From assembly GCA_903813345.2 (NCBI GenBank), contig CAIIXF020000007.1:27515564-27579563 (forward strand): a DNA stretch of 64,000 bases, read 5' to 3'. Source of the stretch: Owenia fusiformis (Eukaryota; Annelida; Polychaeta; Sabellida; Oweniidae). The position numbers were made by a program, and so were the translations under genes. A model generated the notes under the pieces. It had not been told where the DNA came from. It was given only the letters and a program-made list of their open reading frames with translations, and made no database searches. Of the stretch, positions 32,831 through 61,732 are shown in pieces. The stretch's first letter is position 1; each line of letters opens with the position of its first letter.

Positions 32831-33466
32831 CTAAAATAATGATTATGGCTAATAAAGGGTGTGATAACATTTTTAATTTCCAGGAATCCACCTTTATTCT
32901 TTTTAATTTCCAACAAGTATGATGCGACTATGACAAATTAATACTTTGAACACTTTATACAAAAACTACTATTTTTACAAAAATGTCATGTTTTGCGTGT
33001 TGTTACAAGGTCTGCTCCACCTACCCTACCCCTAGGTCACTATAGCAACCATATTATTCAGTCTACTGAGTTTTATGATATGAAACTTTTCAACTTATTC
33101 ACAACATATTTGGACACATTTTGTCAAAAGATCAGCTAGATTGAAAAGAAAACAAATAAAATACAGCATCATTCCTGAAACATATGGAACACCCTGTAAA
33201 CAGAATATTTTGACTGATCCAGGTATAACTCACAAAATGATTTCATGATGAGCTAGCTCACTTATCTATTATTCACTTATCCTAATTAATACTTTTGTAA
33301 TTTTATTTACTTTTTCATTTGACCTACTTTGCAATAAGAAATCATCATGTGAAATTACATCTATTAAGCTTAATATGTTTATATTAATATAAGCAATGAT
33401 TTGCCGTACACTGTATAACCTTATCTTAAACTTATAAATGCATCAATCTCCATTCATATGTTACAG

Positions 33467-33609
33467 GATTTTGTATAGACCTTTTGAAGAACCTTTCATC
33501 AAGGATAGGCTTTACTTACACGCTGAAGAGGTCGCCAGATGGTAACTGGGGTGCTAAGAATAATGTTACAAGAAAGTGGAATGGAATGGCCAGAGAGCTT
33601 GTCGACAGG
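33467..33609 (+). CDS. Gene 1 exon 10: S1 ligand-binding domain
   Basis: Acceptor tgttacag, donor GTATTA, phase 1 in and 0 out, 143 nt. It begins GFCIDLLKNLSSRIGFTYTL, the first S1 helix (compare 'G.C.DLL..I'), and ends RKWNGMARELVDR, the WNGM signature of iGluR S1. It is almost identical in layout to gene 2 exon 63592-63734. It follows the 12-kb intron holding the composite element. Confidence 0.95.
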
Positions 33610-34303: not shown

Positions 34304-34408
34304 AAAGCTGATATGGTTGTCGCCTCTTATACAATCACCAACATTAGAGAGAGGGATTTTGACTTTACCACGCCTTATTTGGACCTTGGGATGAAATTTC
34401 TCATGAAG
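34304..34408 (+). CDS. Gene 1 exon 11: S1 with ligand-binding Arg
   Basis: Acceptor cttgtgtag, donor GTATAC, phase 0 in and out, 105 nt (35 codons). It encodes ADMVVASYTITNIRERDFDF, then TTPYLDLGMKFLMK. By alignment to known receptors the Arg at 34346-34348 is the residue that holds the ligand alpha-carboxylate (GluA2 R485, GluN1 R523), and the Thr in YTI matches GluA2 T480. The GluA2 Pro of APLT is replaced by Ser here. Confidence 0.95.
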
Positions 34409-35690: not shown

Positions 35691-38593
35691 GTGTCACCAT
35701 GAACTAAAACCAAATTCCTTGATAGAACACTGTCTAGCAAACTTAACTGGATGTACCCTTGTAAAAGTACACAACTTACCAATCAAGTTCGGTGCTCGAT
35801 ACTGAAATAACCTTTACGTTAATTGAATTTTAGATTATAAACGTAAATCGATATAAGTTATTAATATTCATTTGTCTGACTTCTTTATTTATAAGATGAG
35901 TAAGGAAGTAAGTTTTGTTTTCAAAAAATAAATGTCTGCATGTTTCAAAATGCCTCACCCAGCAATATCCCCTCTCTACGACCAGCAGCACTTATATATG
36001 GTTTGGTATATCCTTTGGTGTTTTGGTATCACCTTTCTGGCCAAATTTTGATTTTGTTTAATTTTACATATTTTATCATACATTATAGCCATAGGATATA
36101 TGCTAGTTCCATGACCACTTTCAATACTGCTTGTGTGAAAATCTAAAACCCGGTTCACAATTATTAATGGCTGAGATTTGGGACACTGATTCAGGTGTAT
36201 GTTAGTCAATTTTAACCAGTTTTTGTTCACATAATTGACTTTTTGTTTAAATGTAATATATTCTAACTTTGAATATGCCACATTAATTATTGCATATTAT
36301 TTTTTTCTCTCATTATTCTTTATTTGTATTTCCTTTGAGTATTCAGTACCATGAAGTTTTCAATATTATCGATGGATTTGCGTTAGGGGATTTTTGAAGT
36401 TATTTTTATGTGTTTATGTATAGCTATTGAGTTATCGCCATCTATATACTAATGAGCCACTAATTTGCAATACCATTCTATTTCATTCATTTTACACAAA
36501 ATTTATATGCATGTATTTGTTCTGCTTAAGGAATGTGTGTTATATTTATATTCATTCTTTGGAAATGCACAGTTGGCTTTGACAAATGTACGTAGCTCGT
36601 TCTTCGGTTACGCCGGGAACATTTTTTGGTCTATCTTATGTCCCTTTGGTCTAGCCATGTGTTTGGTAAGACGTTTTCACAACTAGATTGTGTCCCCCAC
36701 CCGTTAAGTTGCGTGTCTTCTCGAAATGGAAATAAATTTATTACCTGTACCTCCCATTATTAGCTCACATGGTGAGCTTTTGCAATCTCCGTCTGTCTGT
36801 CCGTCCGTCTGTCTGTCTCTCTGTCCGTCCGTTCATATGTCTGTCTAACTGTCAACGATAGCGGCACGTTTTTTAAAACCTCCGTCGATACGATTACAAT
36901 TTTCGTTAGGCTATTATTGTAAACTATCAATACAAGAAAATCCCCTATTTTGTATAATATGGCCGCCATTTTTGTAGCGAAAAACTCAATTTTTAACTAC
37001 AACTCTCGACTCTTGTTGCTTCGATGTGCATTTTATTTTCAGCTCCATCATGTATAATCAATGAGATGTTGAAGTTCGACAACAGTTCTTGGAAACATTA
37101 AGAATGGCCGCCGTTTTTGTGGCAGAAAAAATCTATCTATAGATTTGACCTTCAATGACATTCTCAAGGTCAAAATAGATTTGACTTTCAATGACATTCT
37201 CAAGGTCAAAAAGGTCTTTTTTCATCTTGCTTCAAATTGACCAATTTATTTTTTAAAATCATCTACAAGTTCTCAGAGGCTAAAGCTGACTTTAGATTTG
37301 AGATTCCACCTTCAATGACCTTCTCTAAAAGTTTTTTTACACATTGCTTCAAATTGACCAATTTATTTTTTTCAAAATCATCTACAAGTTTTAAGAAATT
37401 CAAATCTGACTAAGATTGAACTGGTAATATTGTGAGCAACAAGGTGGTGACATTGTGTCATGTTATAATGCCTTGTTCAAAAATGGCCGCCATTTCGGTT
37501 TTGGGATTCATTTATTCAGCTCCAAATCAGGAACTCTTCCTTTGATTTGCATTTAAATTTGCATAAATCTAAAATGGCCAGCACTTTTCAAAAAATTTAT
37601 ATGACCAGCAATTTTATACGGAAAAGTCACATTAAGAGTGATAACATAGAAAGTATATTGCTTTGATTTGCAATAAAATGTCCCAATCTGTTCTCATACT
37701 GTATGTGATACCATTTATGTTTATAGAAGCCAAGTTCAGGAATCATTGCTTTGATATGCATTCGAATGCACAGGTACATGTATGTCATCGTGCCGATGAG
37801 GTTTCAATGTCAATGTGTCTGTCAATTAGACGGGAATCACTATACCATGTGAGGTCAGTACCCATGGTGCTGTTTATAATTATCATTATTCTTTTCTTTA
37901 GATGAAGGCTATTGAATGGTGGCGTTGAGCTGTATATTCTTTGCAATCATTACGATGTTTGGTTATAAATTGATCTTGATATCTCAATACTTGTGCATGT
38001 TTTGGTGTTGGTGATTTTTTAATGATTGTCGTCAGTCACCCTGAGGATAAATATTGTATTTCGTCACGTTGTAATTGTTTTGCATTAGAAGTAATAATAT
38101 AAGATTTCTTTTTCGAGTGCTCCTTTTTATCACACCCTTTTGGGTACTATATTGTGGTCAGTTTTCCGAGCGGGTGGTTGCGTGGGCGGTAGGGTGGGCT
38201 GGCGTTCGAGCTGGAGTCCCGATAAATCAAATTTGAGGGATTCATCTGATATTTTTGGGTATGTTTCTCCGTATGCAAGTTTAGAATTGATTAGTTTTGA
38301 AATCAATTTTTAAATTTTTTATTCTTTTTACAAATGGGTTGTGGTTTTATGGGTTATGGTATTGGATTTAATCAAAAAAAATTTGACGAACATATGGTCG
38401 CATTGCAGCAAGGTGGAGAGAATTTTAACTATAGATATATCATTCTACTGTCATCTAATGACCACAATGCCTGATATTGCATAAAATAATACTGTCAAAA
38501 GCACAGTTCATTTTCAAATGCATTATAATATGTAGAGTTCTGTGTGTTGTTGTGTTATTGATATGATAATTTATAATAAGTGTTCTTTTGCAG
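35691..38593. other. Intron 11 of gene 1, right part
   Basis: No gene. From 36760 a dispersed repeat begins with the hairpin agctcacatggtgagctttt, followed by a CTGT/CCGT microsatellite (about 36787-36850), 'atggccgccat' pieces and 'gaccttcaatgacattctca' repeats, and ends near 37478 with ggtggtgacattgtgtcatg. Repeats of this general style are abundant in marine invertebrate genomes. The ORFs in this stretch are short and unsupported. Confidence 0.5.
36760..37478. repeat. Dispersed repeat with hairpin start and CTGT/CCGT run
   Basis: Contains agctcacat/atggtgagct hairpin, a run of ctgtctgtccgtccgt, three 'caaattgacc/aaaatcatctacaagttc' blocks and two 'gaccttcaatgacattctca' blocks. The inner blocks reappear in reverse orientation at 43850-44180, so at least part is a mobile family. 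Confidence 0.65.
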
Positions 38594-38769
38594 GAAGAAC
38601 TGACTGAGGTACCTGAACCATTCAAGTTCCTAAACCCCTTTAGCACCGAGGTGTACCTTTATGTGATCCTGACAACAGTCCTTGTCAGCATTTATACGTC
38701 ATTACTCAACAAACTTAGCCCGTATGATCATCACGGTGGCTTTGTATACGATGACGAACCACCACCAAG
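38594..38769 (+). CDS. Gene 1 exon 12: S1 end, M1 helix and start of M1-M2 loop
   Basis: Acceptor ttttgcag, donor GTAATT, phase 0 in and 2 out, 176 nt. It encodes EPFKFLNPFSTEVYLYVIL, continuing into a hydrophobic M1 (VILTTVLVSIYTSLL) and LSPYDHHGGF, equivalent to 'SPYEWH' of AMPA receptors. This is the last exon with only one copy: its phase-2 end is compatible with all three downstream M2 exons (41766, 42644, 49209). Confidence 0.93.
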
Positions 38770-38995
38770 GTAATTCTGCTTCCCACCCACTTCTATCATC
38801 CTCCTAACACAGGCCTCCGGAACTGGTATCGCATTTTTGAAAGAAAGAAGGAATGCAGTGGATCACGTCTGGACCTCTGCGTTCGGAGGATGGCCTCTCT
38901 TAACTGGAATTAAATTAATATAATATATCGAGGAAATTTAAAATATTCAAACCTTGTAATGTCCAATTGTAAATTCTTCAAATATTGCGTATATA

Positions 38996-39608
38996 CAGTT
39001 GGGGCCAAAAAACTTCCACATTTTTTATTTTTGTAATATCTTTACTGATATGCTGCAAATATCAATAAATTATATATCATTTGAAAGATAATTCAATTTT
39101 CGACAAAATGATGTATGATTCATAAAATATGAATGGCTATACTTTACCCTCATATAGGCATCTCCAAAATGTCTTGAACAGTAAATATTCGACTATTTGA
39201 CACAGACTTCACGACAGTTTTGAGGCTTTTTTATCAATAGTTATCATGATGGTAACATCACTCAATGATATTGCATTTGTACATCAATTGTCTTTCATTT
39301 GATACGTAAATCAACAATTTTGACCATCTATAATTAGAATTATATCCCCAAAGCTGACATAGGGGTTATATCTATCTGCTCAGTTCTTAGCATGCTGTCT
39401 TCAGCAATCAGTAAATCACGAGTTTGACCCCTGTGGTAATCGAAAATATATTTTAACAAATTCTCATTTATATTGAATGAATTATATATCATATATCATG
39501 TTGGAAATTGAATTGCCTTTCCAATTATATATGATTTATACATTTGTCTGTAATATCAACAAGGCTGTAGCAACAACAAAAAATGTGAACGTTTTGTGGC
39601 CAAACCTG
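38996..39608. mobile_element. 613-bp mariner-like MITE
   Basis: The left end CAGTTGGGGCCAAAAAACTT and right end ...GTTTTGTGGCCAAACCTG are imperfect inverted repeats, both flanked by TA (38994-38995, 39609-39610). Further inward 'ttatatatcatttgaaagat' and 'ctttccaattatatatgatt' also pair. No ORF. Same transposition class as 34645-35104 but a different family. Confidence 0.75.
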
Positions 39609-41765
39609 TAGTGTGTAACTAGGAGTTCAGTGTGTTTGTTTGGTAGGCTGTACTTGTATAATGAATTGCATAACAAAGGAAAGATAATGATGATATTGGT
39701 ACAATTTAACTATTATTGAATAGGTCAAAATCAGAAAACCATTTCACACACAGGTAAGTCTAATGGTATAGAGATATACGCGGGGTGGTCGTATAATAAC
39801 AACCCACTATTTGCTAAATGTAATCGGCTCTAATGCTCTGAAATCTAAATCTGGACAAGCACAACTAAAATGGTGATAGATCAACATGACTGTCTTGGTT
39901 ATGGTAGCAATGCAATTAGTATAATAATGCTAATGGTATTTTAGTATGTAAAATTATCGTGGACACTCTCTTATTTCTCACATGGTATCGTTATAATGAT
40001 ATATATTGGTTCACATTTATTAACAACTTATTTTCTCACCGAACTCATGCTTTGTTTGTGAAATATACCGTGCGATTTACATTGACACATACGATCAGAA
40101 GAATTCTCTTATTTTTTGTTATTTGTTACAGTTTCATTAAATAATCTAACGTGAATTATTTCATCGTTAGATTATTCATCAATCCATTTCTATTTGTTTT
40201 ATAAAACGGATTTGCCATGTGGACTGGACTGAATATTTTGGTTTCAAACAAACAATTACTTGTAACTTTCAATGTGAAGTGATAGTTTAGTCATTTGACT
40301 AAAAAAATAAGCATATTGTTAAAATCTCATCGTCATTTTCCTGACATCTGATCCATATAATATAATACATGTGAGAGTCTTTTTCAAATTTTTGGCACAT
40401 CCTGTAGATCTCAATTTTTAAAAAAGTGGGACTCAATTTTTGAAAAATGGGCCAAATTATTTTAAAAGCTGATGAATGTCTTTCTTCTAACATATTACTA
40501 ATCGATATTAACACAATGAAATAAATTATTTTTGTCGATAATCTTTAATCAAAAGTCGATTTAATTTTTTTCCATTTTCTTTTCTTCGTATAATAAGAGA
40601 GTAAGTACCGTTTTGTAAATGCTAATCGTTGCCAATAGTTAATGAGTGTTGATGAATGTTGTATCACAGTATAGTAGTGTAGTTATTGTTATTGCCCACT
40701 TATTTTCCCCAACAACGTTTGGCGTCTGTGAAAAATGTTACCATTTTTAATTTCACTACATGATGTCGCCATGATAATGGTGACAATTTGTCACGTTAAT
40801 GTTTGTTGTCTGCGTTGTCAAGTGAAAAATGACAATGGGTGTTCCAGTAGTTTGGTAGGACCAATTGCAAGTAAAGTACAGAGTTCAAATGCAGTTTGTG
40901 ATTTATCACTATAAATACAAAACACTACATTAACACCTGTGTATCAAAATGAACATTTTTGGCGATAGAGAGAGGTGTTTACTAAGACATGTTTTACTGT
41001 ATTGTTTGCTCTTGTAAAAGAATCAGTCGTCCTGTGTGTAATAAAAAACATTTTTCTGAAGTAACTGTGAACTTTTTTTGCAAGCGAATTTTGAGCGCAG
41101 TTGCGTTAAGCTGGTGATGTGATATGATTCTTTATTTCTTCTTTTGGAGAGTCTGTGTGTAGGAACAAATCGAATATTGGATTAATTAATCATAAGTTGT
41201 AACTCGCATAAAGAAAAGTTAATTTCTCCATCTTAGGTTGTAATGACTGTAGCTTATGTGAAGCATGGCATGACAAAGGCGAGACAAGTGCCTCAAATAA
41301 TGTAAAGAAAAATATAAGTTCATACATTTTCAACCGAAACTGTGAAAGTGAAGTCTTGTAATTGACGATTACGTAATTGCGTAACTTGTTTCTTTCGCTT
41401 GTGCATTCATTTTGCATTTATCCAGGAATGCACGCTGTGACTACGGAGTCGAGTCTGCTTACAGTTGTAGCAAACTGAGTGATAGAGCGAAGACTTGAGA
41501 TGAAAATCTCTTTGGCGGCGGGGACCTATCAATATGTGTGCATGGACTCTTCTTCGACCGTTGACATTCTAGAATTCAACACACATTATGTATATTGTAC
41601 AGTATTGCATTATTTCACCTGTAGGCATGTTCCTGAAAACACATGTCATTATTTCTCTTTTAGTGTCACTGCACATGGTCCAGATGCATAGCACGATATG
41701 AAAATAGGCCCAGCATATTGTTATGATGCTTACTGTGCTTTTCACATTATTTTCTATATATTTAG
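39609..41765. other. Intron 12 of gene 1 before array A
   Basis: No supported gene. At 40690-40830 'aatgttaccatt', 'atgtcgccatgataatggtg' and 'gttgtctgcgttgtc' motifs look like a diverged member of the gtcaccac MITE family. A mariner-end remnant lies near 40394. I did not find a second M1 exon. Confidence 0.5.
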
Positions 41766-41902
41766 CACTTTCCGAGGTGAGAGGGATTTCCGGAGACAGC
41801 GTTATAAAGACACCCATACGTTGAGCTTTATGAATTCCTGCTGGCTATCAATAGGTTCATTATTGCATCAAGGGGGTGCAGAGTATCCACGATCCCTATC
41901 TG
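41766..41902 (+). CDS. Array A, M2 exon 1 (His at the Q/R/N site)
   Basis: Acceptor tatatttag, donor GTAAGA, phase 2 in and 1 out, 137 nt. It encodes an Arg/Lys-rich M1-M2 loop, then CWLSIGSLLHQGGAEYPRSL, the re-entrant pore helix and filter. Aligned to GluA2 (FMQQGC...PRSLSG) the filter-site residue is His (codon 41866-41868). A second 137-nt M2 exon lies 741 bp downstream. Using both would shift the frame, so they must be alternative. Confidence 0.88.
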
Positions 41903-42643
41903 GTAAGACATCGGCATCAGCTTGCTGTTACCCCTTCCCAAACAGTATAACCTATAAACATAAATTAGACCTGCATAACCCTTTTTATTTTAACATTTTT
42001 ATAGATACGATGCATGAACCTCGCTTGTTATTTGCATCACCATGTTGGTTACCCAGAACTTAGGACATTTTACGCTTTTTGTGTATTTTACCCTTGGGAC
42101 GCAAACGAGGTTTCATCATATATAACTGCAACATTGTAACCATTATGTTTTAAAGTGACACATTAATATTCTTGAATTTTAACACTCTATTTTTGGTAAT
42201 AATTAGAATTAACATATATAATGTTTTTCTTTTGAAGCTGCTTATCATGTCTAATCACATATCCTTTAGGTTAGGGACGGTGCCCACTTCTCAGGGACAC
42301 TTATGTTCCAACATAACTACCCTCAAATATACAAGGTGGCCAAAAATGATTGAAACATTCGTCATTATTATCATTATATCATTGTCATGTTGGTAAGAAC
42401 TATATACACGGTGTATATACTAAAATCAAAAGAATAATTGCTTATTAAATAGGCTATAATTGATACTTGTTTTTGGCCAGCCCTTAGCTTCATATATTTG
42501 TACTTTATTTTCCTGTTTTGTATTTTACGTTTTTAGATTTGTCTCCCATTTGTCATAGTAACATAAAATTAGCTTTCATATTTTTATGGTATAGCATGTA
42601 TTTTGTATTCACACAACACTCTAACACTTTTTTGCATGAATAG

Positions 42644-42780
42644 AGAATACCTTGACATTAAAAATTATGCAAGGAGAAAGTTTCGAAGGACGGGAGCTCT
42701 AAATTTTGTGAATGCCTCCTGGTTTAGTATAGCGTCTCTACTACTGCAAGGAGGGGAGCATTACCCTCGTTCCCTCAGTG
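42644..42780 (+). CDS. Array A, M2 exon 2 (Leu at the Q/R/N site)
   Basis: Acceptor catgaatag, donor GTAAGT, phase 2 in and 1 out, 137 nt. It encodes a basic loop (NYARRKFRRTGA), then SWFSIASLLLQGGEHYPRSL. The filter-site residue aligned to the GluA2 Q/R site is Leu (42744-42746). It is closer to the array B M2 exon (LWFSITSLLLQGG) than to M2 exon 1. The acceptor lacks a strong polypyrimidine tract immediately before it, though cttttttgc lies 8-16 bp upstream. Confidence 0.88.
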
Positions 42781-43189
42781 GTAAGTTATTTGTCGGATCA
42801 TTATTGTGTGATCGTGAGGTGTGAATAAAAACATTGGGTATGCCAGATGGAAAGAAGGAAAGAAAGAATTGCCAAATGGATATACCCAGTGTCCTTCCGT
42901 GTGCTCATACTTGTATATAGTTTTTGAGATTACTTTATTTTTGAACATTTTAGTACTGTCTATTTATTTGTTTTATTAGATGATCATGACATTTGTTGGT
43001 AGTGTTAGCCATTTATTATTTTGCCTGTTTATTTTCTGTATTTGACACGTTTTAGTTTTTTACCCTTTTACATAAAGAAACATTTATTTCATAATTATAT
43101 ACATAATTGATTACTTTAAAGAATAGCACATAGCATAACTGTAGGAATATTCAATGGTATCCAATGTGATCATCTTTTCTATTTTCTAG

Positions 43190-43339
43190 CACGTATAACG
43201 ACTGTAATGTGGTGGATGGGGATAGTGATAATAATCCAGACATACACGGCCAACTTGGCAGCGTTCCTTACAGCGGGCAGACTAAACAATGACATCAACT
43301 CCATTGAAGACTTGGGATCACAGACCAGAGTCATATATG
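43190..43339 (+). CDS. Array A, M3 exon
   Basis: Acceptor ttttctag, donor GTTAGC, phase 1 in and out, 150 nt. It encodes ARITTVMWWMGIVIIIQTYT and then ANLAAFLTAGRL. QTYTANLAAFLT is the M3 gate motif (SYTANLAAF) that is nearly invariant in iGluRs. It continues to SIEDLGSQTRVIYG at the start of S2. Confidence 0.95.
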
Positions 43340-43571
43340 GTTAGCGAGGGCTACATAAAAGTCAAGTCTATAATCTTATTCTCAGAAAATCGACATAAAA
43401 GAATCTTGAAATATATTCTATTTAAGAGAATAAAAACTAGGTTAAACGAAAGACCGGAATACATATACAGACAGACATACTAGATTAACGGAAGTTATTA
43501 ATATACAGAATAGTACTGATATCTTTCTAGTTCCTAGTTTAATTTTTATAAGTTCCATTTTTATTTTTAAG

Positions 43572-43699
43572 GAACCGTCCGAGGAACATCTCCCCACCAG
43601 TTTTTCATTGATAGTAACATTACGCTTTACAAAGAAATGCATGGATTCATGGAGGCCAATGGAGGACTTGTTCAAAACACAGTCGATGCTGTTGAATGG
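43572..43699 (+). CDS. Array A, S2 first exon
   Basis: Acceptor tttttaag, donor GTGATT, phase 1 in and 0 out, 128 nt. It encodes GTVRGTSPHQFFIDSNITLY and MHGFMEANGG. The Ser codon at 43589-43591 aligns with GluA2 S654/GluN1 S688, a ligand contact. The array B counterpart has Ala there. Confidence 0.92.
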
Positions 43700-43799
43700 G
43701 TGATTACATGTTTGCAGTCACAATCGAGTATAGTGTAGTTGCAAGTTTCTAGGGTTGGCCCCAAAAATGCAACTCACGACAAAAAGTAACAAGGCATTA

Positions 43800-44320
43800 A
43801 CATGACAAAATGTCACCACCTAATTGCTCACAATTATTATGAGTTCAATCTTAAGTCAGATTTGAATTTCTGAGAACTTAGATGATTTTGAAAATAAAGA
43901 TTGGTCAACTTGAAGCAAGTTGACAAAAGATCCTTTTGACCTTTAGAAGGTCATTGAAGGTCAAATAAAGACCTTTTTGACCCTGAGAAGGTCATTGAAG
44001 GTGACATCTCAAATGTAAAGTCAGATTTGAATTTTTAAGAACTTCTAGATGATTTTGAAAAAATTGGTCAATTTGAAGCAAGTTGAAAAAATACCCTTTT
44101 GACCTTTTTTGACCTTGAAACCGAATCTTAAACATAAAGTCAGATTTGAACTTCTGAAAACTTGTAGATGATTTTGAGTTTAAACAGTATTTGTTAAGTT
44201 ATTGGAAGTTTTAAGAATTGTTACAGGCGCCAACCACTTACTACTGCCAACCATCAACCGCCGTCACAAAAAAACGGAGACCATAACAATATGTCACCAC
44301 TTTTTGGTGTTGACATAAAA
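43800..44320. repeat. MITE-like repeat in the array A intron
   Basis: It begins acatgacaaaatgtcaccac and ends atgtcaccactttttggtgt-tgacataaaa. Three 'gaacttctagatgattttga' blocks and 'gaccttgagaaggtcattga' type blocks lie inside. It is related to 5757-5899, 30702-30822 and the inner part of 36760-37478. Confidence 0.6.
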
Positions 44321-44565
44321 ACTGTACGTTTGGCACAAAGTCAGATCTAACTTTAACTCAGTTCAAATCAATTCAAAGTATACTCCAGTTTTAACAATTG
44401 TGTTTTTATACCAGCAGTCAAAATGAGAAAAGATAAAATTATTTGTAAAACTGGTAACATACATCGAATATGTGTACAATGCCTTTGCTGTTTATCATTA
44501 GAAGACATTATAGTCTTACAATTATCGCTTAGCACCCTTTGAAATGATCTATTGCATCTTTATAG

Positions 44566-44783
44566 GTCCGCGAGGGAAACTATGCATTTATTTGGGACGA
44601 TGTAGTGTTGGATTACATCGTACAAAACAGGCCATGTAACACTGTTAAAACAGTTGGCCGTCTATTTGGAAAAATAGGATACGGGTTTGCCCTACAGAAG
44701 AATTCTCCGTACAAACATGAGATATCAACACACATATTGCAGCTTCGAGAGATGGGCTACATGGATGAACTAAAAAAGAAATG
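44566..44783 (+). CDS. Array A, S2 second exon with AFIWDD
   Basis: Acceptor ctttatag, donor GTATGC, phase 0 in and 2 out, 218 nt. It encodes VREGNYAFIWDDVVLDYIVQ, then GYGFALQKNSPYKHE and LREMGYMDELKKKW. The Asp at 44596-44598 aligns with GluN1 D732/GluA2 E705, which binds the ligand amino group. The Trp before it matches GluN1 W731, a residue linked to glycine-type ligands in GluN1. Confidence 0.95.
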
Positions 44784-45286
44784 GTATGCGATTTTTCTCC
44801 TGTATGCATCGTCAGTATTTCTACAATATCCGCTGTCGATGTATTTACAATTTTGTCTTATATTTACCGTCAGTATGATTGGTCACGTGCATTTACCGTA
44901 AAATAAGATGAGTGATTTCTATTATCATTATCAAAATAAGTTGTTTTATCATGTCCCACTTGTGTTAGATTTTTCAAAGTCATTATATGATTCTTTCCGA
45001 TAATTACTCAATACATTCTTACTTTCTTTTATTGACACTGTTACTTTTATTGTATGTTAGATCATTGATGAGGATGTTTTTCCCAAATCTGATCATAAAT
45101 GTGTCTTTAATATTTCAGAATTTGTATATTTCTTCTTAATAACCATTAATAAATATTCAGCTTTAATACCGGTTTACGCTTTATATATCATACATATATA
45201 TTTATATATCATACATGTATCATATATGTATGTTTATATCTAAATGTATTCCATGAATAATAAAAAGTATATATGACTGTTAATAG

Positions 45287-45390
45287 GTATGAGGATAGAA
45301 GCGATTGTTTCGACACATCATCCGCTGAGAGCGAAGACAATGCTGAACTGGCTGCTGCTGGGGGCAGAATGGGTATTGAGCATATGCTGG
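45287..45390 (+). CDS. Array A, S2-M4 linker exon
   Basis: Acceptor ttaatag, donor GTAAGA, phase 2 in and 1 out, 104 nt. It encodes YEDRSDCFDTSSAESEDNAE followed by LAAAGGRMGIEHMLG. The position of Cys after W.....D.. is typical of the conserved S2 disulphide partner. The acidic linker is more charged than in array B (101 nt). Confidence 0.88.
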
Positions 45391-45671
45391 GTAAGAAACT
45401 GTAAAGAACATGCTTTATGGGGAATGGGTATTGAGTACAACTGTATATATGTATGTCGATTAAGTAAATGAAAGGAATATGCTTCATTTGGAGAATGAAT
45501 ATTGAGTATGTCTGGTAAGAACCATTTTGAAATAGCTCAATACAAGTTTACCTTACTATGTGACCACATATTTGATATTGTTATGAAAAGCCCGTGTTTT
45601 ATGTGGATCATCATAAATTAACTATAATAAGTCAACTATTTTATGACATGCAATGAACATCTGCTTTTCAG

Positions 45672-45781
45672 GAGTGTTCTTCATCATATATGGAGGTCTT
45701 GCCCTCAGTCTTGTTGTGTTATTTTTTGAGTGGATAATTGCCTCCATAGCAGTTATAGGAAAGTTGAACATGGAACACCAG
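45672..45781 (+). CDS. Array A, M4 helix exon
   Basis: Acceptor cttttcag, donor GTAAAA, phase 1 in and 0 out, 110 nt. It encodes VFFIIYGGLALSLVVLFFEW followed by IIASIAVIGKLNMEHQ. This is the M4 membrane helix, with 'GVF.I..GG.' as in other iGluRs. Confidence 0.93.
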
Positions 45782-45968
45782 GTAAAATTGCATTGAAATA
45801 AACATTGAATTGGCTCCAACGATACTCAGAAAAAAGAAACCGTTTGAATTGTGCATTTAGAACTTTTTAGCTGTTGTAAGTCATAGATGACAAAAGACAA
45901 TAGTAAAAGTATTTTTAACAGAGTGCCAATCTAGGTTTCATCCATTTAATGATACGTTCTGTTTTCAG

Positions 45969-46757
45969 GGTCCCAAGACATTCAAAGAAGCACTTACACT
46001 TAGGTTCAGGTTGTTACGTCAAGACATGAAAGAGGATTGGCTACCCACAATTCCATATTGCTTCAGAAGAGGCGACAAACATAAACAGTCAGAACAAGAA
46101 GAACTAAATGAGATTAATAAAGAATATAAAGCGTATCAATTCAAATCCCAAATAAGCCTTAGGTCAAGTTTCAATAAAGCAATGCTATCAATGACCAAAG
46201 TAAATTCATCATCAACGGATCAACTTTTGAGAAATACATCAAGGGCGTCTTTGCAATCATGTAACCATTTAACCCCGTTATCTCCGAGACAGTTGTCTCC
46301 AAGAAATATCAAATGTGCCAAAAGACAAAATGGTTACCCTCAATGGGACGACTCACAATCAGACGACAATGAAAAACAGTCAAACATAGATCATAAAGAC
46401 AGAAGCATAGATGGTAGCATGAATGATCTTACCAATGAAGCAGTAAAATACATTCCTTGTGAGAATGAAGATTCAACAAGTGCTGATTATTCAGCTAAAG
46501 ACATAAAAGATGAGTATCCAGATTTTGAACCTCCATTATTCCGTACAGAAAGTTCTGGGACTCTCACATCAAGCGATACAAAAAGCTACAGAAGCAGCAA
46601 TGTTATTGGATCTAGCATAGATATTGAAATTGATTCAAAGAACAATTCCAGACTCAGCTCTGCCAGCACTCTAAGGAGAAAGTTATCATTTCCACGAATG
46701 ATGAACAAAGTTCAAGCACTTCCAGAACATGAGCATTTTCACCACGACTTTGATTAG
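45969..46757 (+). CDS. Array A, terminal exon: 262-aa cytoplasmic tail
   Basis: Acceptor gttttcag, phase 0, stop TAG at 46755-46757. It starts GPKTFKEALTLRFRLLRQDM and keeps EDWLPTIPYCFRRGDKHKQS, nearly the same as array B, then diverges into a long Ser/Asp/Glu-rich tail ending EHFHHDFD. There is no classical C-terminal PDZ ligand. The many Ser/Thr residues (for example TLRRKLSF) could be phosphorylation sites, but that is inference. AATAAA at 47032-47037 is a candidate polyadenylation signal. Confidence 0.93.
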   Translation, partial: GPKTFKEALTLRFRLLRQDMKEDWLPTIPYCFRRGDKHKQSEQEELNEINKEYKAYQFKSQISLRSSFNKAMLSMTKVNSSSTDQLLRNTSRASLQSCNHLTPLSPRQLSPRNIKCAKRQNGYPQWDDSQSDDNEKQSNIDHKDRSIDGSMNDLTNEAVKYIPCENEDSTSADYSAKDIKDEYPDFEPPLFRTESSGTLTSSDTKSYRSSNVIGSSIDIEIDSKNNSRLSSASTLRRKLSFPRMMNKVQALPEHEHFHHDFD

Positions 46758-49208
46758 TTTTATGAATTACCGAGCTCAAAAGCAATGCCGTTTTTCAGTT
46801 AACTCTGCTATTCAATCACAGACATACACCAATGGGATACCACTATGTAACCTTTACTTACGTAATATTGCTTGGGACCTCCCGAGGCTCGATGGAAACC
46901 GGTGAGACACGCAGGGACTTTGCCCCATTTGTGTATGTTGGGCGGTTTATGTTTTAATGTCAGTCTAATTATCATTACCCATGACCTCAGTGCAATTCTC
47001 AGGAAAAATAGTGTACGTTTAAAAACATTCAAATAAACATCAGAATAAGTTGTATCAGAATATCTAAACCGACTCTTTTGTACTAATAAATGGTCCGAAA
47101 ATAAACAAGATATTTGTTTGATACATACTAAAACATTTTGAAATAGAAACCAATACTTATATATTAAATAAAACTAGCCTCAACCTAAATTATAATAAGA
47201 CCTTATATCTAGTGATCTTAAAGTTAGAATCAGAAATACAAGGAGCGACTTTGAAGTCAACATACCCTCTGTAAAGAAAAAATGCTGCATAGTCCTCTAT
47301 CAGTCATATTTTCTATTTTTCTGTATTATCATACTAAACATTCAGATGTACAATGTATATATATTTGGGCCAAATGTAGAAAATTTCGTCAAAGAATTTC
47401 GTAAATATGGTAAAAAGTTACAACTGATTGAATAGAACAACTCACAAAATTGTGAGTGTGAATTTTTACCATAAATTGACGTCATAAATATGAGAAATTC
47501 AATATCCAGCAATGTGTTCAGTAAGGAGATCTTGTGAGATATTTTCAATTTTCAGTTAAGTTTAGAGCAATAAATAAAACTTTGTAAAAGTCGGTCGATA
47601 TAACGACAGCAGTCTGATAACTAACCATTTTGTGAAAGAATTTGAGGTAATATTCTCCTCCTCGGTTCAAATTTGGGGTAGGGGTAACATTTATAACAAT
47701 AAACTTGAAATTATAAGATAATTATAACCCCTTATAGCCTTTCACAATCACCCATGTCATAAATCTTTAACTTAGCATATGCATTCCAAAATTTCTAACT
47801 TTTTTAAATTTTGATTTAATTTTTTTTTAATTTTCACCAGTTCTTCACAATATGTATAAAATACCTCTAAGAGTTTAGTATGATTATACAAAATATTGAA
47901 AATGTTATGATTTGTAAAGGACCGTGGACCTTTTATCTTTATAGAGGGTAAATGATTTTGAATCAATATGTCGTTTATTTTGTTTGGCAGCGTTTTCGAT
48001 TTTCTGAAAATATGAATGACAAGGATGTATATGATGTGCCATATATAGGGTGAAATGTCTTACATATACACAATACATTTGTTATGAATTTGTTATTTAT
48101 ACCTGCTAAAAACTCAATCTACATTAAGTAAATTAATAATACAAAAATGATATCAAAATCCTTACCACAATTATCCTGATTATATGTTTACCTTTAGTAA
48201 TCAAATGTTATCATCATTGCCATAATGTTACTGTATAATTGATACTCGATGAAGCCACTTGCCTTTGCCACGGATGACCCATACATCTACATTTCATATG
48301 TGCACTTCCATCATGCAAAGCTTTAATAACCATATCTCCCCTGTTGGACTATGTAGTAAAGCTGTTTCATGTGTTAAAGCCTTTTAATGTTTAAAGCATT
48401 CAGATTTATCATCAATTTAACAACTATTTTAATAAGGAAGAACGACAGGCTTGCACGTGATGTGTAATGGGCAACCAGGGTTGTACATTTTTGAAGGGGA
48501 TATATGTACTTACTTATATACAAGTATATCATATTATTAAAGATACTTCACTCATGCATGCCGTTAAACTGCAAAATACATTTTGATGTTGGGGCGGAAT
48601 GGCTTTATGTGTAAAATGTACTGTCCACGCATGTTGCATGTCATTGGAGTTTTGTGCCATGGCTTTGAACAGAAGTTGCTAAATGATCATCTAGCTGTAA
48701 TGATTACTATTAGTAAGATATTGCCAACTACTGATTGTGATAGTTGTCCTTTCGATGTAGCCTGAAATCGTATAAATTATTCTAGAAATTTATTGTGATC
48801 AGGTTTCCTCTAGAAATCAATCAAGAGCAGGAGGCATCAGCCCACAACTATCCTCCCTTCAGAGGGAATAAAGAATGTTTTTACCGGAGAGTCTTGCTAA
48901 TTGATATCCATATATATTTAGTTAAAATTTTTTGAATACCTAAGGCCATTTAGCGAGGGAAATTCTCGAACTTATATGTACCTCAAGCCGCTAAAAAATA
49001 TTCTCTGTATAATTTCAAAATTAAGTGTCCATATATAAAGTTACATACTATACAATGTTTTCTATTGCAACAGCCAAGCCTCTATATCTCATAACTTAGT
49101 CTTGTCATTAACAGTCATAACTAAAACATGGACAACTATGAAGACAGATATAAGTGCTGCACATAAGGCATATGTATTTTATGTTTTTATCTTTTTTGCA
49201 AACAAAAG
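46758..49208. other. Spacer between arrays A and B
   Basis: It contains the putative 3' UTR of array A and about 2.2 kb of AT-rich DNA. I searched it for ATD, S1 and M1 exons (WNGM, SYTIT-R, SPYDHH motifs) and for a signal-peptide start and found none. The absence supports array B being fed by the upstream shared exons, or being a headless duplicate. Confidence 0.6.
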
Positions 49209-49345
49209 GAGAATATGTGATATAAAAACTCACGAAAAAAGAAAATGTCGTGCAATTGGAGCTCATGACTTTAAGAATGCCTTATGGTTTAGCATAACAT
49301 CTTTGCTACTCCAAGGTGGTGAAAACCAACCCCGTTGCCTTGCTG
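49209..49345 (+). CDS. Array B, M2 exon (Leu at the Q/R/N site)
   Basis: Acceptor aaacaaaag (preceded by cttttttgc), donor GTAAGA, phase 2 in and 1 out, 137 nt. It encodes RRICDIKTHEKRKCRAIGAH and then LWFSITSLLLQGGENQPRC. The filter-site residue is Leu. The usual PRSLSG after the pore is PRCLAG here. Phase and length equal both array A M2 exons, so it can be joined to the M1 exon at 38769. Confidence 0.88.
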
Positions 49346-49504
49346 GTAAGATAACTTTTTAATTTGGCAGTATACTTTATGTATGTTTCAGTTACAGAAA
49401 TGTTAGCATTTGAGAATGTTTTTAAATATTCGTTTAACGATCCATTACATACCATTCTCTAATCATGGTTAATGTGTTAAAAAAGTTTATAACGTTTATC
49501 ATAG

Positions 49505-49654
49505 CACGTGTTACGACCGTAATGTGGTGGATGGGAATAGTCATTATAGTCCAAACATACACGGCCAACCTGGCAGCGTTCCAAACAGCAAGCCGACTTA
49601 TCACTGGCATCAACGATATCGAAGACCTTGGTACACAAACTAAAATCAAATACG
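49505..49654 (+). CDS. Array B, M3 exon
   Basis: Acceptor atcatag, donor GTAGGC, phase 1 in and out, 150 nt. It encodes ARVTTVMWWMGIVIIVQTYT, then ANLAAFQTASRLITG. The gate motif TYTANLAAF is intact. The array A residue after AAF is Leu and here it is Gln (AAFQT), next to the gate. Confidence 0.95.
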
Positions 49655-50054
49655 GTAGGCTCTCATATGACTTTTTCATTTGATGAATTTCAAATAAAAA
49701 TGTTCATGAACTGGTTTTTGGGTACAGGGCTCAATGAATCGCGTGGACAATGATCTTTAGCTCGATGGTCTTTGTATGAAACTTTTAATGAGGTTGGGAC
49801 CGAGTTCAAAGGTTAGCATACATGACACCATTTGTTAAGTCATGGGAAGGGAAAGGGAATATCGGATGGGATAGAAAATCTTTTGTTATTCAATTTATCC
49901 CGAAATGTCTTCAATAGAGTCCTGGGATGGAATTAATAATCGGATCTAACGATTTGGTTCAATACATTTCAAAACTTTTATTTCCTGGACAATTCAATAG
50001 TATTTATGCATGCCAAAGATTTACACATAAGCACTCATTTTCTTTCTCCTTCAG

Positions 50055-50182
50055 GAACCAACGAATTCGCAGCCCCATATGAATTCTTCATGGTCAGTAA
50101 GATAACACTCTACCAGGACATGATGTACTTCATGGAACACAATGGAGGATTTGTAAACAACACGATGGATGGCGTGAAAAGA
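50055..50182 (+). CDS. Array B, S2 first exon with Ala-Ala at the ligand loop
   Basis: Acceptor ctccttcag, donor GTAGGT, phase 1 in and 0 out, 128 nt. It encodes GTNEFAAPYEFFMVSKITLY and MEHNGGFVNNTMDG. The residue aligned to GluA2 S654/GluN1 S688 is Ala (50072-50074), against Ser in array A. This loss should change how the ligand carboxylate is held. NNT is a potential N-glycosylation site. Confidence 0.92.
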
Positions 50183-51931
50183 GTAGGTATATCAATGCCG
50201 CTTTAAATAAAACCCTATTAACCGGGGTCTGAGTTGAGGGCCCAACTTGACTTGTAATACCCTCGCGGCGATCTGCGCTTGAAGATGCTCCTTGACAACT
50301 ATATTCTAATTCTATAAATGTACATCTTTTATGATGAATATAAAATCAAAAAGCTAACCTTGGGTCTGTAGTGATAGCCAAAGGCCGTTTTTGGAACAGT
50401 TGAAAGTTCTTTCACGGCGACTGGCAAACATAAATTTTCCGTACATCGTCGTAAATTCCGAACGTCTTCCGAACGATTTCGTCGTAATTCTTGTATATCA
50501 TTGGTTAATAAAAGCACGCAGTGTTATGCTGATATGCCATCTTTCGATATAATTTGATTAATGTCAAACCACAGGGTATCTGGGAAACGACTAAATTCAG
50601 ACAAAATGTGTTGAAGGGCGTATATTCAACAAAACATTTGTTTATTATCTGGATTCATCAATGGAAGGAGGCGGCATAGCTTGAACGTCATGATAGTATG
50701 TGATGCTAAATTTATATTTAAGGATTTGCATTGTTTGCTGAAACATACCATGACGGTGTTGTTTCCAAACCACTGTATGACCGCGCAGTGGAAATGCAAT
50801 GTTCAGGAAACAACGCCTGAGTAAAATGAAGAAACTACAATGCATTGAGTCTTGGGCTACAATTCTTTTCACACATTGCAATTTTTTCTACAAAATCATC
50901 CAAAAGGAACGAAATCACTTAAAGAACACATTTTTAATGAAATTATTTGCAAGGGTCAAGTTGGCAAGTCATCAAATCCAATGTGAAAAGTCCATTTATG
51001 ACAATTATTTAGCTAGTGACCTTGCATATGTTATCGACAATTCACACACTGTTCTCTATGTGAAATACTGTGTTTGGATTGGCTGGAATCGGAAACACCT
51101 TGCCTAGCTATGTGTGAATCAGAAATAATGTTTCAAGGTGGCCTGGTAAGAATGAGTTGGGTAAATTTCCTGAAATATTAAATGTGGTAACCTCATTAAT
51201 AGAATAATGAACACATAATCGTAAAAATATATTCACACATAGCTAAGCAAGGTGTGCCCAATTCCAAATCTGAACAGGATATCCACATAATGAACAATGT
51301 GTGAAATATCAATTGCGCATTTGTTGTGTACAGTTGCTAAGCGATTGAGATTGAAATTGAGTTTTCCAACTTGACCATTGCAAAAAATTTCATTGAAAAT
51401 ATGTTCTTTTAGTGATTTTGTATCTTTTAGTTGAAACTATTTTGCAATGTGTGAAAAGGATTTTACGCCTTGGACTCCAGTGCATTGTTTGGGGTCATGC
51501 AAAAATTTGGAAACATCTTTGTGGAATGGTTCAGCACACAATGCACTGAGTCCAAGGCTTAAGTCCTTATATATTCACAAATTACATTACTTGCGTAATC
51601 AGTGCCAACATTTTTCGATAGTTGTTTTGCGTGATAAGAATTGACAAACGGACAAACAATACATCAATAGCGCAGATTAATAGAGGTGACAAATGTTTAA
51701 TCAATTAATGAAATAAAATATAGGTTGACACATCAAAAAGGACATAAATGAGTATGTTACGACTGGTGACGATCGTTCTAAAAACGGCACCCCGTTACCC
51801 TATCTTGCAATATAGCCTATATGTAATCGTTCCATGACCACCACACAGACAGATCACTCTTATTTTTGGTTGAAATGTTTGTCTGACGCACAGTAGCTCT
51901 ATAAAAGTCGCATTCACTGTGTCGATTTCAG
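50183..51931. other. Array B intron with foldback element
   Basis: No gene. It holds the foldback at 50838-51487 and a third partial copy of its arm tip (aatgcactgagtccaaggct at about 51540). The short plus-strand ORFs at 50799 and 51447 are parts of the foldback arms. Confidence 0.55.
50838..51487. mobile_element. About 650-bp foldback element
   Basis: The left arm starts caatgcattgagtcttgggc and includes cttttcacacattgcaattt; the right arm is its imperfect reverse complement (aatgtgtgaaaaggatttta...ccttggactccagtgcattg). Inner segments also pair (cttgcctagctatgtgtgaa with cacacatagctaagcaaggt). No TSD could be fixed with confidence. Confidence 0.75.
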
Positions 51932-52149
51932 GTTCGTCAAGGTAACTATGCATTTATTTGGGATGACGTCGTCTTGGATTTCATAGCACAAAGTGAGCCA
52001 TGCAACACAGTCAAAACAGTTGGCAGAAGGTTTGGCAAAATTGGCTTTGGTTTAGGTTTACAGAAGCGCTCTCCGTATAAGCATGAACTATCGTCTCATA
52101 TTATGCAACTACGAGAGATAGGTTACATTGATGAAATAAAGAAAAAATG
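51932..52149 (+). CDS. Array B, S2 second exon with AFIWDD
   Basis: Acceptor atttcag, donor GTGAGT, phase 0 in and 2 out, 218 nt. It encodes VRQGNYAFIWDDVVLDFIAQ, then GFGLGLQKRSPYKHE and LREIGYIDEIKKKW. The amino-binding Asp is at 51962-51964. It is very similar to the array A exon, so the two arrays come from one duplication. Confidence 0.95.
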
Positions 52150-52312
52150 GTGAGTAAACTATAAGGTTGGACCTCAAAATGCTCCAATTCGTCCAGGTTC
52201 ATATTCTCAGCCCTCCCACTAGTTTGTTCTTTGAAAAACATGTTTCAAAACATCCAGAATTCTATGTTTCAAAGAATTTATATAAATGTTGTTTGATTTG
52301 TTATTCGTTTAG

Positions 52313-52413
52313 GTGGGTGGACCGCAGTGAATGCAAAGCCGCTAAAGCATCAGTTGACACATCTGAAGAAGTAGCAGCTGCTGGTGGACAATTGGGGATA
52401 TCTCATATGTTAG
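52313..52413 (+). CDS. Array B, S2-M4 linker exon
   Basis: Acceptor ttcgtttag, donor GTAGAC, phase 2 in and 1 out, 101 nt. It encodes WVDRSECKAAKASVDTSEE followed by AAAGGQLGISHMLG. One codon shorter and less acidic than the array A linker, with the Cys conserved. Confidence 0.88.
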
Positions 52414-52526
52414 GTAGACTACATATCTTGAATGCAATGAATTAAATAAATGTATATTTAATTAACATATTGAGAACAAGAGTGTGAAAAATTTAGTGTG
52501 TTTATATAGTTTTCGATTATTGACAG

Positions 52527-52642
52527 GAGTTTTCTACATAATTTATGGAGGTCTTGTCACAAGTGTTGTTGTCATGGTGTTGGAATGGATCGTTGCTTCG
52601 GCGACAAGTACATCAAATATTGATTCTACAATAATGCAAAAC
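52527..52642 (+). CDS. Array B, M4 helix exon
   Basis: Acceptor ttgacag, donor GTGAGA, phase 1 in and 0 out, 116 nt. It encodes VFYIIYGGLVTSVVVMVLEW followed by IVASATSTSNIDSTIMQN. The helix is conserved in layout with array A (VFFIIYGGLALS), and the segment after it is two codons longer. Confidence 0.93.
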
Positions 52643-52780
52643 GTGAGAATTTAATATTTTATTAATGCATGAGTCTTCCATCTTATTGTCTTCAAAATGT
52701 CCATACGAAATTTAAAACTTTGATTTAGTATTTTTAAGCTGCTTTTTGGGTTAATATCTCCTATGTGTCTCTATTTTCAG

Positions 52781-53122
52781 CAAAATCCCAATTCTTTCAA
52801 GGATGCACTCAAATTAAGGCTTAGATTGTTATATCAAGATATAAGAGATGATTGGTTACCTACTATTCCATATTGCTGGAGACGACGTGACAAACAAAAA
52901 CAGTCGGGACGAGAAGAGCTTGTTGAAATAAATAAAGAATATCAAGAGTTTCAATACAGATCCCGAATTAGCATGGCATCTGTTTTAAGCGATACAACCA
53001 TGCATATTGCTTCTTCATCTTACGATCACTATGCACGAAAGATATCCTGTCAATCTCCAGGATCAACACATTTAGGTTTACCTAACATGCCAACAGTGTC
53101 AACTATAAATGGAACTAATTGA
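52781..53122 (+). CDS. Array B, terminal exon: 113-aa cytoplasmic tail
   Basis: Acceptor ctattttcag, phase 0, stop TGA at 53120-53122. The first 60 residues (FKDALKLRLRLLYQDI, DDWLPTIPYCWRRRDKQKQS) closely match array A; the rest is short and unrelated, ending STINGTN. So the arrays would give tails of 262 and 113 residues. A candidate AATAAA lies at 53491-53496. Confidence 0.93.
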   Translation, partial: QNPNSFKDALKLRLRLLYQDIRDDWLPTIPYCWRRRDKQKQSGREELVEINKEYQEFQYRSRISMASVLSDTTMHIASSSYDHYARKISCQSPGSTHLGLPNMPTVSTINGTN

Positions 53123-54848: not shown

Positions 54849-54927
54849 ATGGATTACCGTACACTCATTTTCACACTATTGATGAGCATATTCATATCTG
54901 GAATTTCTTCAAAAATAGTCCGAATAG
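54849..54927 (+). CDS. Gene 2 exon 1: start and signal peptide
   Basis: ATG in tgtcATGgat context, donor GTAAGT, ends in phase 1. It encodes MDYRTLIFTLLMSIFISGIS followed by SKIVRIG. The hydrophobic core (LIFTLLMSIFISG) and small residues before K make a normal signal peptide, with cleavage likely near GISS/K. IVRIG is the usual first ATD strand. No upstream in-frame alternative is favoured. Confidence 0.85.
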
Positions 54928-55000
54928 GTAAGTGTAAGTGCATTTTTGTAATATTTTTTCTTGGTGGATGAATGGTGAAAGCGGCAGTATTATAATAGAA

Positions 55001-57771: not shown

Positions 57772-58017
57772 TACATACTAGTAGTTTGGGATTTAATTTC
57801 AGTCGCCCTCGCATTAAAGTAAAGTTTAACATTTTAATATTGCTTTTTTGATTCAGATTATTTGGACAATCCTGACAAGTCATAAAAATCTTCCACAAGA
57901 TTTTTCTTTATCATGGTTATTATCAAATATAACTGCATTTCTTAATTAGTAACACACGCCACATCATGAGAAACGATGAGTATCAGAATGTACACGCCGT
58001 GTTGTCTTACATTCTAG

Positions 58018-58179
58018 GTTGCTTAGTTTCCAGTAATTATGTCCAGACAGAGGAAGTGTATGCTTTGCAGAACGCCGTAGAGTATGTTAATTCTAGACAA
58101 CTATTGGGACCTGGTAATACCTTGGAATACTTATGCAATTCTACAAAGGCACAAACATTCTTCGAGATGTTACAGTTGG
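58018..58179 (+). CDS. Gene 2 exon 2: ATD segment
   Basis: Acceptor cattctag, donor GTAGGT, phase 1 in and out, 162 nt. It encodes GCLVSSNYVQTEEVYALQNA, then VEYVNSRQLLGPG. This is the start of the LIVBP-like domain (I.IG.L.. followed by an Ala-rich helix). It contains a potential N-glycosylation site at NST. Confidence 0.85.
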
Positions 58180-58278
58180 GTAGGTACTAGTCACGGGGTG
58201 TAACTCTCATTGGAGGAGACTAATTATTCTTTTTACTCTATTACATGGTTCCTAAATGAAAAGACGAGTAATTTTAAT

Positions 58279-58830
58279 GTTATGTTGTGTTATGTTATGT
58301 CATGTCATGACATGGTATGTTGTGTTTGTTATGTCATTTCATGTCATGTCATGGTATGTTGTGTTGTTATGTTATGTCATGCCATGTCATGGTATGTTGT
58401 GTTTGTTATGTCATGTCATGTCATGTCATGTCATGTCATGGTATGTTGTGTTTGTTATGTCATGTCATGTCATGTCATGGTATGTTGTGTTTGTTATGTC
58501 ATTTCATGTCATGACATGGTATGTTGTGTTGTTATGTTATGTCATGCCATATCATGGTATGTTGTGTTTGTTATGTCATGTCATGTCATGGTATGTTGTG
58601 TTTGTTATGTTATGTCATGTCATGGTATGTTGTGTTTGTTATGTTATGTCATGCCATGTCATGGTGTGTTGTGTATGTTATGTCATGTCATGTCATGGTA
58701 TGTTGTGTTTGTTATGTCATGTCATGGTATGTTGTGTTTGTTATGTTATGTCATGTCATGTCATGTTATGTTATGTTATGTAATTATGTTGTGTTGTATT
58801 GTGTTTTGTTGCGTTATGTTATGTTGTGTT
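58279..58830. repeat. TATGT/CATGT pentanucleotide-derived satellite
   Basis: About 550 bp of atgtcatgtcatgtcatg blocks interleaved with gtatgttgtgtttgttatg, giving long stop-free frames full of CHVMSCHGMLCLLCY-type peptides. The frames exist only because the repeat period lacks stop codons; no protein is inferred. It sits 100 bp after exon 2 of gene 2. A weaker version of the same simple sequence is at 11890-11985. Confidence 0.93.
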
Positions 58831-61702: not shown

Positions 61703-61732
61703 GTGAGTTATCACTGCGATGGATTTCGTTGT

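Follow-up and report, generated by a model that had tools for sequence, protein, structure and literature searches.

An ionotropic glutamate receptor gene of Owenia fusiformis with a single front half and two complete back halves predicted to be used alternatively

Can a single ionotropic glutamate receptor gene supply several receptors by joining one front half to different back halves? The question is raised by a window of 64,000 nucleotides from the annelid Owenia fusiformis, by which we mean the whole stretch of DNA analysed (G000:C7:27515564-27579563, in a genome of 498,259,871 bases and 525 contigs). Positions given here are those of the window, and negative coordinates lie upstream of it. 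One gene of this window, here called gene 1, belongs to the ionotropic glutamate receptors; behind its single front half stand two complete back halves, arrays A and B. In what follows, N stands for a front half, A and B stand for the types of back-half block, and a digit gives the gene (0, 1 or 2). The first-pass annotation of this DNA had proposed one gene making two receptors that share their N-terminal half, and as the alternative that B is left over from a duplicated gene. We consider it probable, and the best explanation of the sequence data, that gene 1 has one front half and two mutually exclusive 3' blocks, each chosen as a whole in a manner resembling the unc-49 gene of C. elegans.

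One front half and two back halves in gene 1

The front half of gene 1, made up of signal peptide, ATD, S1 and M1, starts outside the window, with exons 2 and 3 at -4398 and -1272, and all exons of the gene inside the window lie on the forward strand. Exon-peptide search and joining placed ATD exon 4, the first front-half exon in the window, at 5493-5624, followed by ATD exons 5 (5975-6109), 6 (7319-7443), 7 (19946-20104) and 8 (20456-20725), the ATD/S1 exon 9 (21104-21308) and the S1a (33467-33609) and S1b (34304-34408) exons. The front half ends with the M1 exon (38594-38769), which carries the common donor, in phase 2, and is one of three close M1 exons in the genome.

Array A opens with two alternative M2 exons, M2a (41766-41902) and M2b (42644-42780), and continues with the M3 exon (43190-43339), the S2a exon (43572-43699), the S2b exon (44566-44783), the S2-M4 linker exon (45287-45390), the M4 exon (45672-45781) and a terminal exon encoding a tail of 262 residues and the stop (45969-46757). 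After an inter-array spacer of 2451 bases (46758-49208), array B starts with a single M2 exon (49209-49345), the phase-2 acceptor of which fits M1. It is followed by the M3 (49505-49654), S2a (50055-50182), S2b (51932-52149), S2-M4 linker (52313-52413) and M4 (52527-52642) exons, and by a terminal exon with a tail of 113 residues and a stop (52781-53122). AATAAA words are present downstream of both tails, from 47032 for A and from 53491 for B.

The seven exon types stand in the same order and phase in both arrays, with 64% protein identity across 324 residues of B. The phases agree because the exon lengths are matched: they are identical between A and B for M2 (137), M3 (150), S2a (128) and S2b (218), and amount to 104 and 101 for the linker, 110 and 116 for M4, and 789 and 342 for the tail, respectively. 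The resemblance of the two arrays in exon type, order, phase and sequence is beyond chance. All internal exons of A and B are bordered by AG and GT, and when joined to the nine front-half exons of the window, M2a plus A, M2b plus A, and B are each open to their own stop. By these splice borders and open joins, both arrays are intact and fit the phase of the M1 exon that ends at 38769, as the first-pass annotation had stated. Its claim of a single ATD-S1-M1 set also held, as a tblastn search of 46758-49208 with the peptides of ATD exons 2-9, S1a, S1b and M1 matched no ATD, S1 or M1 exon at E<=1.

It had further been suggested that the two receptors would have different pores, and at the Q/R/N and +4 positions this applies to only one of the M2 exons. 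In an alignment with GluA2, M2a and gene 2 carry H at the Q/R/N position and M2b and B carry L, while the outgroups Tubulanus, Dimorphilus, Lineus and Branchiostoma have Q. At the +4 position, M2a has A, and M2b and B both have E; according to the accessible part of PMC12226733, this position contributes to polyamine block together with Q/R/N. M2a thus differs at both positions, whereas B equals M2b. In a tree of this short exon, M2a groups with the M2 of gene 2 (support 98), and the B-type M2 is joined by M2b (support 81), the version contained in the public protein P0001.

M2a and M2b of array A are also of note in their own right as a pore-selecting exon pair, offering H or L at Q/R/N and A or E at +4. 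Each is 137 nt long and both are in the same phase, which is the form of a single-exon pair with putative mutual exclusion.

In the proposed block choice, the phase-2 M1 donor at 38769 of a single pre-mRNA would be spliced to M2a or M2b and then to the remainder of array A, or alternatively to the B M2 exon at 49209, bypassing all of A together with its terminal exon. We infer the 38769-49209 splice for gene 1; the resulting products would share ATD, S1 and M1, and would differ in pore loop, M3 gate, S2, M4 and cytoplasmic tail. Control of splice sites and of polyadenylation would have to make the choice, because no long complementary arms were found that flank array A. Among inverted repeats of at least 40 nt in 38000-64000, none pairs 38770-41765 with 46758-49208, and a short-word search for arms flanking A yielded nothing beyond 12 nt of exact match or 34 nt at 76%.

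Neighbouring genes and the upkeep of array B

With 200 kb of flanking sequence added, a total of 264 kb was searched with 20 exon peptides, and a cluster of three genes was found. Gene 0 lies upstream of gene 1 on the minus strand, head-to-head with it, from about -63.5 kb to -25 kb (exon 2 to stop). Its front half is 93% like that of gene 1 and is joined directly to a B-type block, with introns of about 0.86 kb between M1 and M2 and about 21 kb between M3 and S2a; its exon 2/exon 3 boundary was placed one base off relative to gene 1, which affects neither the sum nor the frame. The public protein P0002 is exactly this N0+B0 join. Gene 0 therefore supports the proposed block choice as a neighbouring case in which a like front half leads straight into B. 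The exon peptides detected no A-type exon in this gene (E<=0.01, 264 kb).

Gene 2 (54849-64000, continuing to about 68990, forward strand; public protein P0003) is a tandem paralogue that begins 1.7 kb past array B. Its front half is joined to an A-type back half, which has a single M2 exon of the M2a type. In the 75 kb past gene 2, exon peptides detected no B-type exon at E<=0.01. Genes 0 and 2 share exon order, phases and family, and each has one back half, while gene 1 has both. Genome-wide, the M1 query gave five matches, three of them close (100, 92 and 74%) and the others at 47 and 38%, and the S2b query gave ten, with four close ones (100, 83, 78 and 78%) followed by matches of 42% and less. 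Close back halves (four) thus outnumber close front halves (three) in the genome.

Given that gene 0 pairs its front half with B, the divergence of both halves from gene 1 was compared. By the Nei-Gojobori method, synonymous divergence (dS) between N0 and N1 is 0.173 and non-synonymous divergence (dN) 0.034 over 574 codons, with dS varying from 0.05 to 0.53 among front-half exons. For B0 and B1, dS is 0.160 and dN 0.050 over 275 codons, a figure which excludes M3 and the poorly alignable tail past 46 codons; dS is 0.213 with M3 included (324 codons). Furthermore, the intron flanks of genes 0 and 1 align throughout the front half and B (blastn). Since the two dS values are similar and the intron flanks align, the front half and B were duplicated together, which makes N1 the natural partner of B.

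The M3 exon is an outlier in this comparison, with a B1-B0 dS of 0.56 vs 0.16 for the other B exons, and the initial part of B1 M3 resembles A, pointing to either gene conversion between the two arrays or rapid change in gene 0.

Several analyses indicate that B has been kept as coding sequence. dN/dS between B0 and B1 is 0.31 with M3 excluded. When changes were polarised with A1 and A2, the B1 branch carried 11 synonymous and 8 non-synonymous changes and the B0 branch 8 and 19, and a codon model with free branch lengths gave an omega for B1 of 0.11 without M3 and 0.15 with all exons. In a clocked test, the front half supplied the neutral lengths of both branches (0.217 and 0.244), as justified by the common duplication. 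Here neutrality of B1 was rejected, with twice the log-likelihood difference (2dlnL) at 32.4 without M3 and 32.8 with it (omega 0.21 and 0.26), and the clocked omega was 0.21 for B1 vs 0.49 for B0. Neutral decay was also simulated, with substitutions only and no indels, 24 splice-site bases and 1500 replicates per rate. At 0.23 substitutions per codon, 5.0 stops were expected and the probability of no stop or splice-site hit was approximately 0.0016; it was 0.11 at 0.07 and 0.0001 at 0.30 substitutions per codon. In the comparison with gene 0, the B M2 exon ranks with the most constrained exons (dN 0.010, dS 0.151). As this constraint lies upstream of the start of P0009, a public protein covering array B, coding extends back to a phase-2 donor upstream. 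Judged from these codon comparisons, B has been under purifying selection since the split of genes 0 and 1.

The order in which blocks and genes arose was addressed with trees and protein distances. dS is saturated both between N1 and N2 (1.40) and between A and B (about 1.4 and more), and therefore protein distances were used. The front-half tree with outgroups was ((gene 0, gene 1), gene 2), with an ultrafast bootstrap of 84 for genes 0 and 1, and the back-half tree with outgroups was ((A1, A2), (B0, B1)), with support of 98 for A and 100 for B (95 and 100 without M2). Scaled protein distances, for which three of the five outgroups were used and M2 was excluded, were 0.58 [0.49-0.69] for A-B, 0.34 [0.28-0.42] for A1-A2 and 0.30 [0.25-0.34] for N1-N2. 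The A-B distance was the largest in 200 of 200 bootstraps; A1-A2 exceeded N1-N2 in 85% of them, so that these two depths are indistinguishable. By these distances, the A/B split is older than the split of genes 1 and 2.

A single block duplication inside a gene, with later duplications of whole genes, accounts for the trees and distances, and no extra front-half lineage is needed. The simplest history would begin with a block duplication within the gene, giving A and B, followed by a duplication into genes 1 and 2 in which gene 2 lost B. Its last step would be an inverted duplication of gene 1, the copy of which, gene 0, then lost A. A deletion scar of A in gene 0 was sought in its M1-M2 intron. 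Only the two ends of this intron align with gene 1 (as far as about 38780, and again from 49148), with no breakpoint readable. On balance, we lean towards a still broader reading, according to which gene 1 would be the ancestral undivided locus with up to three receptors (M2a+A, M2b+A and B). Its block duplication would be older than the duplications of the genes themselves, and its neighbours would be partial copies, one fixed for front+B and the other for front+A, so that alternative splicing of entire receptor halves would have preceded gene duplication, which then distributed the products among genes.

Public annotation and competing explanations

The public gene set represents gene 1 in two parts. 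A gene 1 query of 943 residues is identical to the Owenia fusiformis protein P0001 over its full length (100%), and P0001 is N1 joined to M2b and A. P0009, in turn, is array B alone, with 345 residues running from an internal Met of the M3 exon to the B stop; it omits the B M2 exon and has PF00060 alone, at profile positions 74-146 of 146. The upkeep of array A is evident both from its presence in P0001 and from a lack of departures at family-invariant sites (0 of 56 in A1).

Several observations weigh against the choice between A and B as alternatives behind one front half. Besides the existence of P0009, no N1+B protein was found in the public protein searches, and the 38769-49209 join is absent from the public gene set. 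Embryonic and adult RNA-seq was used in the Owenia genome paper, according to the accessible part of PMC9977687, and if P0009 belongs to the gene set of that paper, which we assume, no N1-B isoform was retained there. Taken together, these annotation findings are the weightiest counter-evidence. In gene 1, an open frame with an ATG stands just upstream of the B M2 exon. Furthermore, the neutrality test for B1 is weak when no clock is imposed (2dlnL 3.2 without M3 and 4.4 with it), the free-branch codon model is ill-conditioned for B0 without M3, and inclusion of the whole poorly alignable tail gives a B0-B1 dS of 0.34 and a dN/dS of 0.42. Departures from family-invariant sites were counted at 6 of 62 sites in B1 and 7 of 62 in B0, compared with 0 of 56 in A1 and 2 of 58 in A2, where the 62 sites for B are those invariant in A1, A2 and five outgroups, and 56 and 58 come from the matching tests. 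The B lineage as a whole is thus freer than A, yet B1 is not in decay when compared with B0. The proposal of one gene and two receptors with a shared N-terminal half therefore has the layout, the upkeep of B and the gene 0 join on its side, and the public set without the 38769-49209 join against it.

That B is an unused relic, namely what is left of a tandem duplicate after the loss of its front half, would agree with the absence of a front half of its own, none being detected in the spacer, with the separate truncated protein held in the public annotation, with the extra departures of the B lineage at invariant sites and with the weak unclocked test. We nevertheless regard an unused B as unlikely. 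Its seven exons are intact with consensus splice sites, a neutral B1 is rejected under the clock and has little chance of escaping a stop or splice-site hit in the decay simulation, and B1 is no worse than B0, which is the block of a complete gene, in either its departures or its clocked omega. Five of the residue changes at the 62 invariant sites are identical in B1 and B0. Moreover, a lost front half would be expected to lie as far from N1 as B lies from A, yet gene 0 has B attached to a front half that is nearly N1. The earlier idea that B is left over from a duplicated gene is hence disfavoured for B today, considering its intact exons, purifying selection and the gene 0 join; as an origin it is possible, in the form of two full genes of which the second lost its front half before the split of genes 0 and 1.

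P0009 and the ATG-bearing open frame directly 5' of the B M2 exon are what an independent transcription unit would leave, with a promoter of its own in the spacer and a truncated membrane protein as product. A product without S1 and M1, however, lacks half of the agonist-binding clamshell and the first membrane helix. P0009 also starts within M3 and so omits the strongly constrained M2 exon, and the upstream open frame is not shared with gene 0, where the frame is full of stops and the splice acceptor is conserved. We read P0009 as a truncated gene model because the omitted M2 is conserved and the upstream frame is not shared with gene 0, and we consider an independent unit quite improbable. 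In a profile search for orphan back halves, 103 proteins were matched at E<=1e-40, among which P0009 was the sole one named Owenia; many of the matches were short fragments, including those of arthropods and lancelets. It is also conceivable that gene 1 originally consisted of a front half and B, and that recombination with a gene like gene 2 brought A in between M1 and B, the two blocks then being used or not. Gene 0, as a plain front half plus B, and the grouping of A1 with A2 are in line with such an insertion, but it predicts N1-N2 to be as deep as A-B and A1-A2 to be shallower, while the observed N1-N2 and A1-A2 distances (0.30 and 0.34) are about equal and both well below 0.58. We consider it very unlikely; it would in any case alter the origin but leave unchanged the expectation that one front half serves two blocks. 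Finally, nothing was found in favour of an assembly artefact or an uncollapsed haplotype, an explanation we find scarcely credible. There is no N in the 264 kb, and the divergence of B1 from B0 (dS 0.16), together with the far greater one between A and B, is more than haplotypes of a single copy would show. Furthermore, P0001 and P0009 are each listed on a contig of 39,792,004 bases, slightly different from the 39,776,147 bases of the contig used here.

Receptor family, known systems and other features of the locus

PF01094, PF10613 and PF00060 were found above curated cut-offs in P0001, P0002 and P0003, giving these proteins the domains of ionotropic glutamate receptors, and the best PDB matches were AMPA receptor structures (E 2e-78). 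The M3 gate motif, of the SYTANLAAF type, is present as TYTANLAAF in A1, A2, B0 and B1, and T in its first position also occurs in Tubulanus, Dimorphilus and Lineus. The nearest named full-length relatives outside Owenia are from Tubulanus polymorphus, Lineus longissimus, Dimorphilus gyrociliatus and Branchiostoma lanceolatum (P0004-P0007, one database entry per species in the protein search), with 42-51% identity. In the accessible part of PMC12226733, AKDF 'group II' receptors are described from molluscs, annelids, cephalochordates and a hemichordate. The closest relatives found here, which are annelid, nemertean and Branchiostoma proteins, would be compatible with this AKDF range, as judged by similarity search.

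The closest known parallel to the proposed choice of whole blocks is unc-49 of C. elegans, in which several GABA-A receptor subunits arise from one front half and alternative downstream parts, according to the accessible parts of PMC11296113 and PMC7260190. Like unc-49, gene 1 has a single front half before complete, phase-compatible 3' blocks, and it shows both the layout and the upkeep of each block as coding sequence, the latter weaker for B without the clock. The two also differ. unc-49 is a Cys-loop receptor gene with three blocks and known products, while gene 1 encodes a glutamate receptor of the tetrameric type with two blocks and predicted products, and its cut between M1 and M2, unlike that of unc-49, splits the S1/S2 clamshell into a shared and an alternative part. 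The flip/flop choice of AMPA receptors, which is the mutually exclusive splicing described for ionotropic glutamate receptors in the literature consulted and alters the end of S2 and the linker to M4 (PMC8257547, accessible part), involves a single 115-nt exon pair, whereas in gene 1 a block of seven exons has been duplicated, from M2 to the stop. With seven exons each, A and B do not form a single-exon pair of the flip/flop type; M2a and M2b of array A are the closer analogue, but they are located in the pore loop. While alternative use of whole halves is already known from unc-49, the accessible open-licence literature contained, among the matches listed, no ionotropic glutamate receptor gene described as having whole alternative halves, and the present case is apparently unreported to that extent.

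If the N1-B splice is true, an ionotropic glutamate receptor gene is able to exchange pore, gate, one clamshell lobe and tail as a unit while retaining its assembly domain, and isoforms with a common ATD, made from one promoter, could co-assemble. The cluster also lends itself well to asking if alternative splicing came before gene duplication and then yielded to it, as one locus has both options and its neighbours have one each.

A more distant paralogue lies on the minus strand of the same chromosome, with an S2b match of 41% at G000:C7:33816406-33816558 and an M1 match of 47% at 33823237-33823365, and this locus could act as an outgroup within the genome. A long imperfect tandem repeat of the TCATG type lies at 58254-58811, in an intron of gene 2. 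Repeats and mobile-element-like sequences also occupy introns of gene 1. Between ATD exons 6 and 7, an element of about 6.5 kb (12100-18643) is enclosed by inverted repeats (172 nt at 100% and 163 nt at 99%) and has a minus-strand open frame of 572 residues, the top Pfam match of which is Pox_A32 (E 3.5e-11); we presume it to be Polinton-like. The intron between exon 9 and S1a holds a stretch of about 11.6 kb (21625-33198) between inverted arms, the outermost of 108 nt at 91% and the inner ones of 539 nt at 98% and built of a ATGAATCCTG-type repeat, which is probably another transposon. In the S1b-M1 intron, the sequence at 37179-37411 is present as a single copy, and it matches a many-copy tandem array in the 21 kb M3-S2a intron of gene 0.

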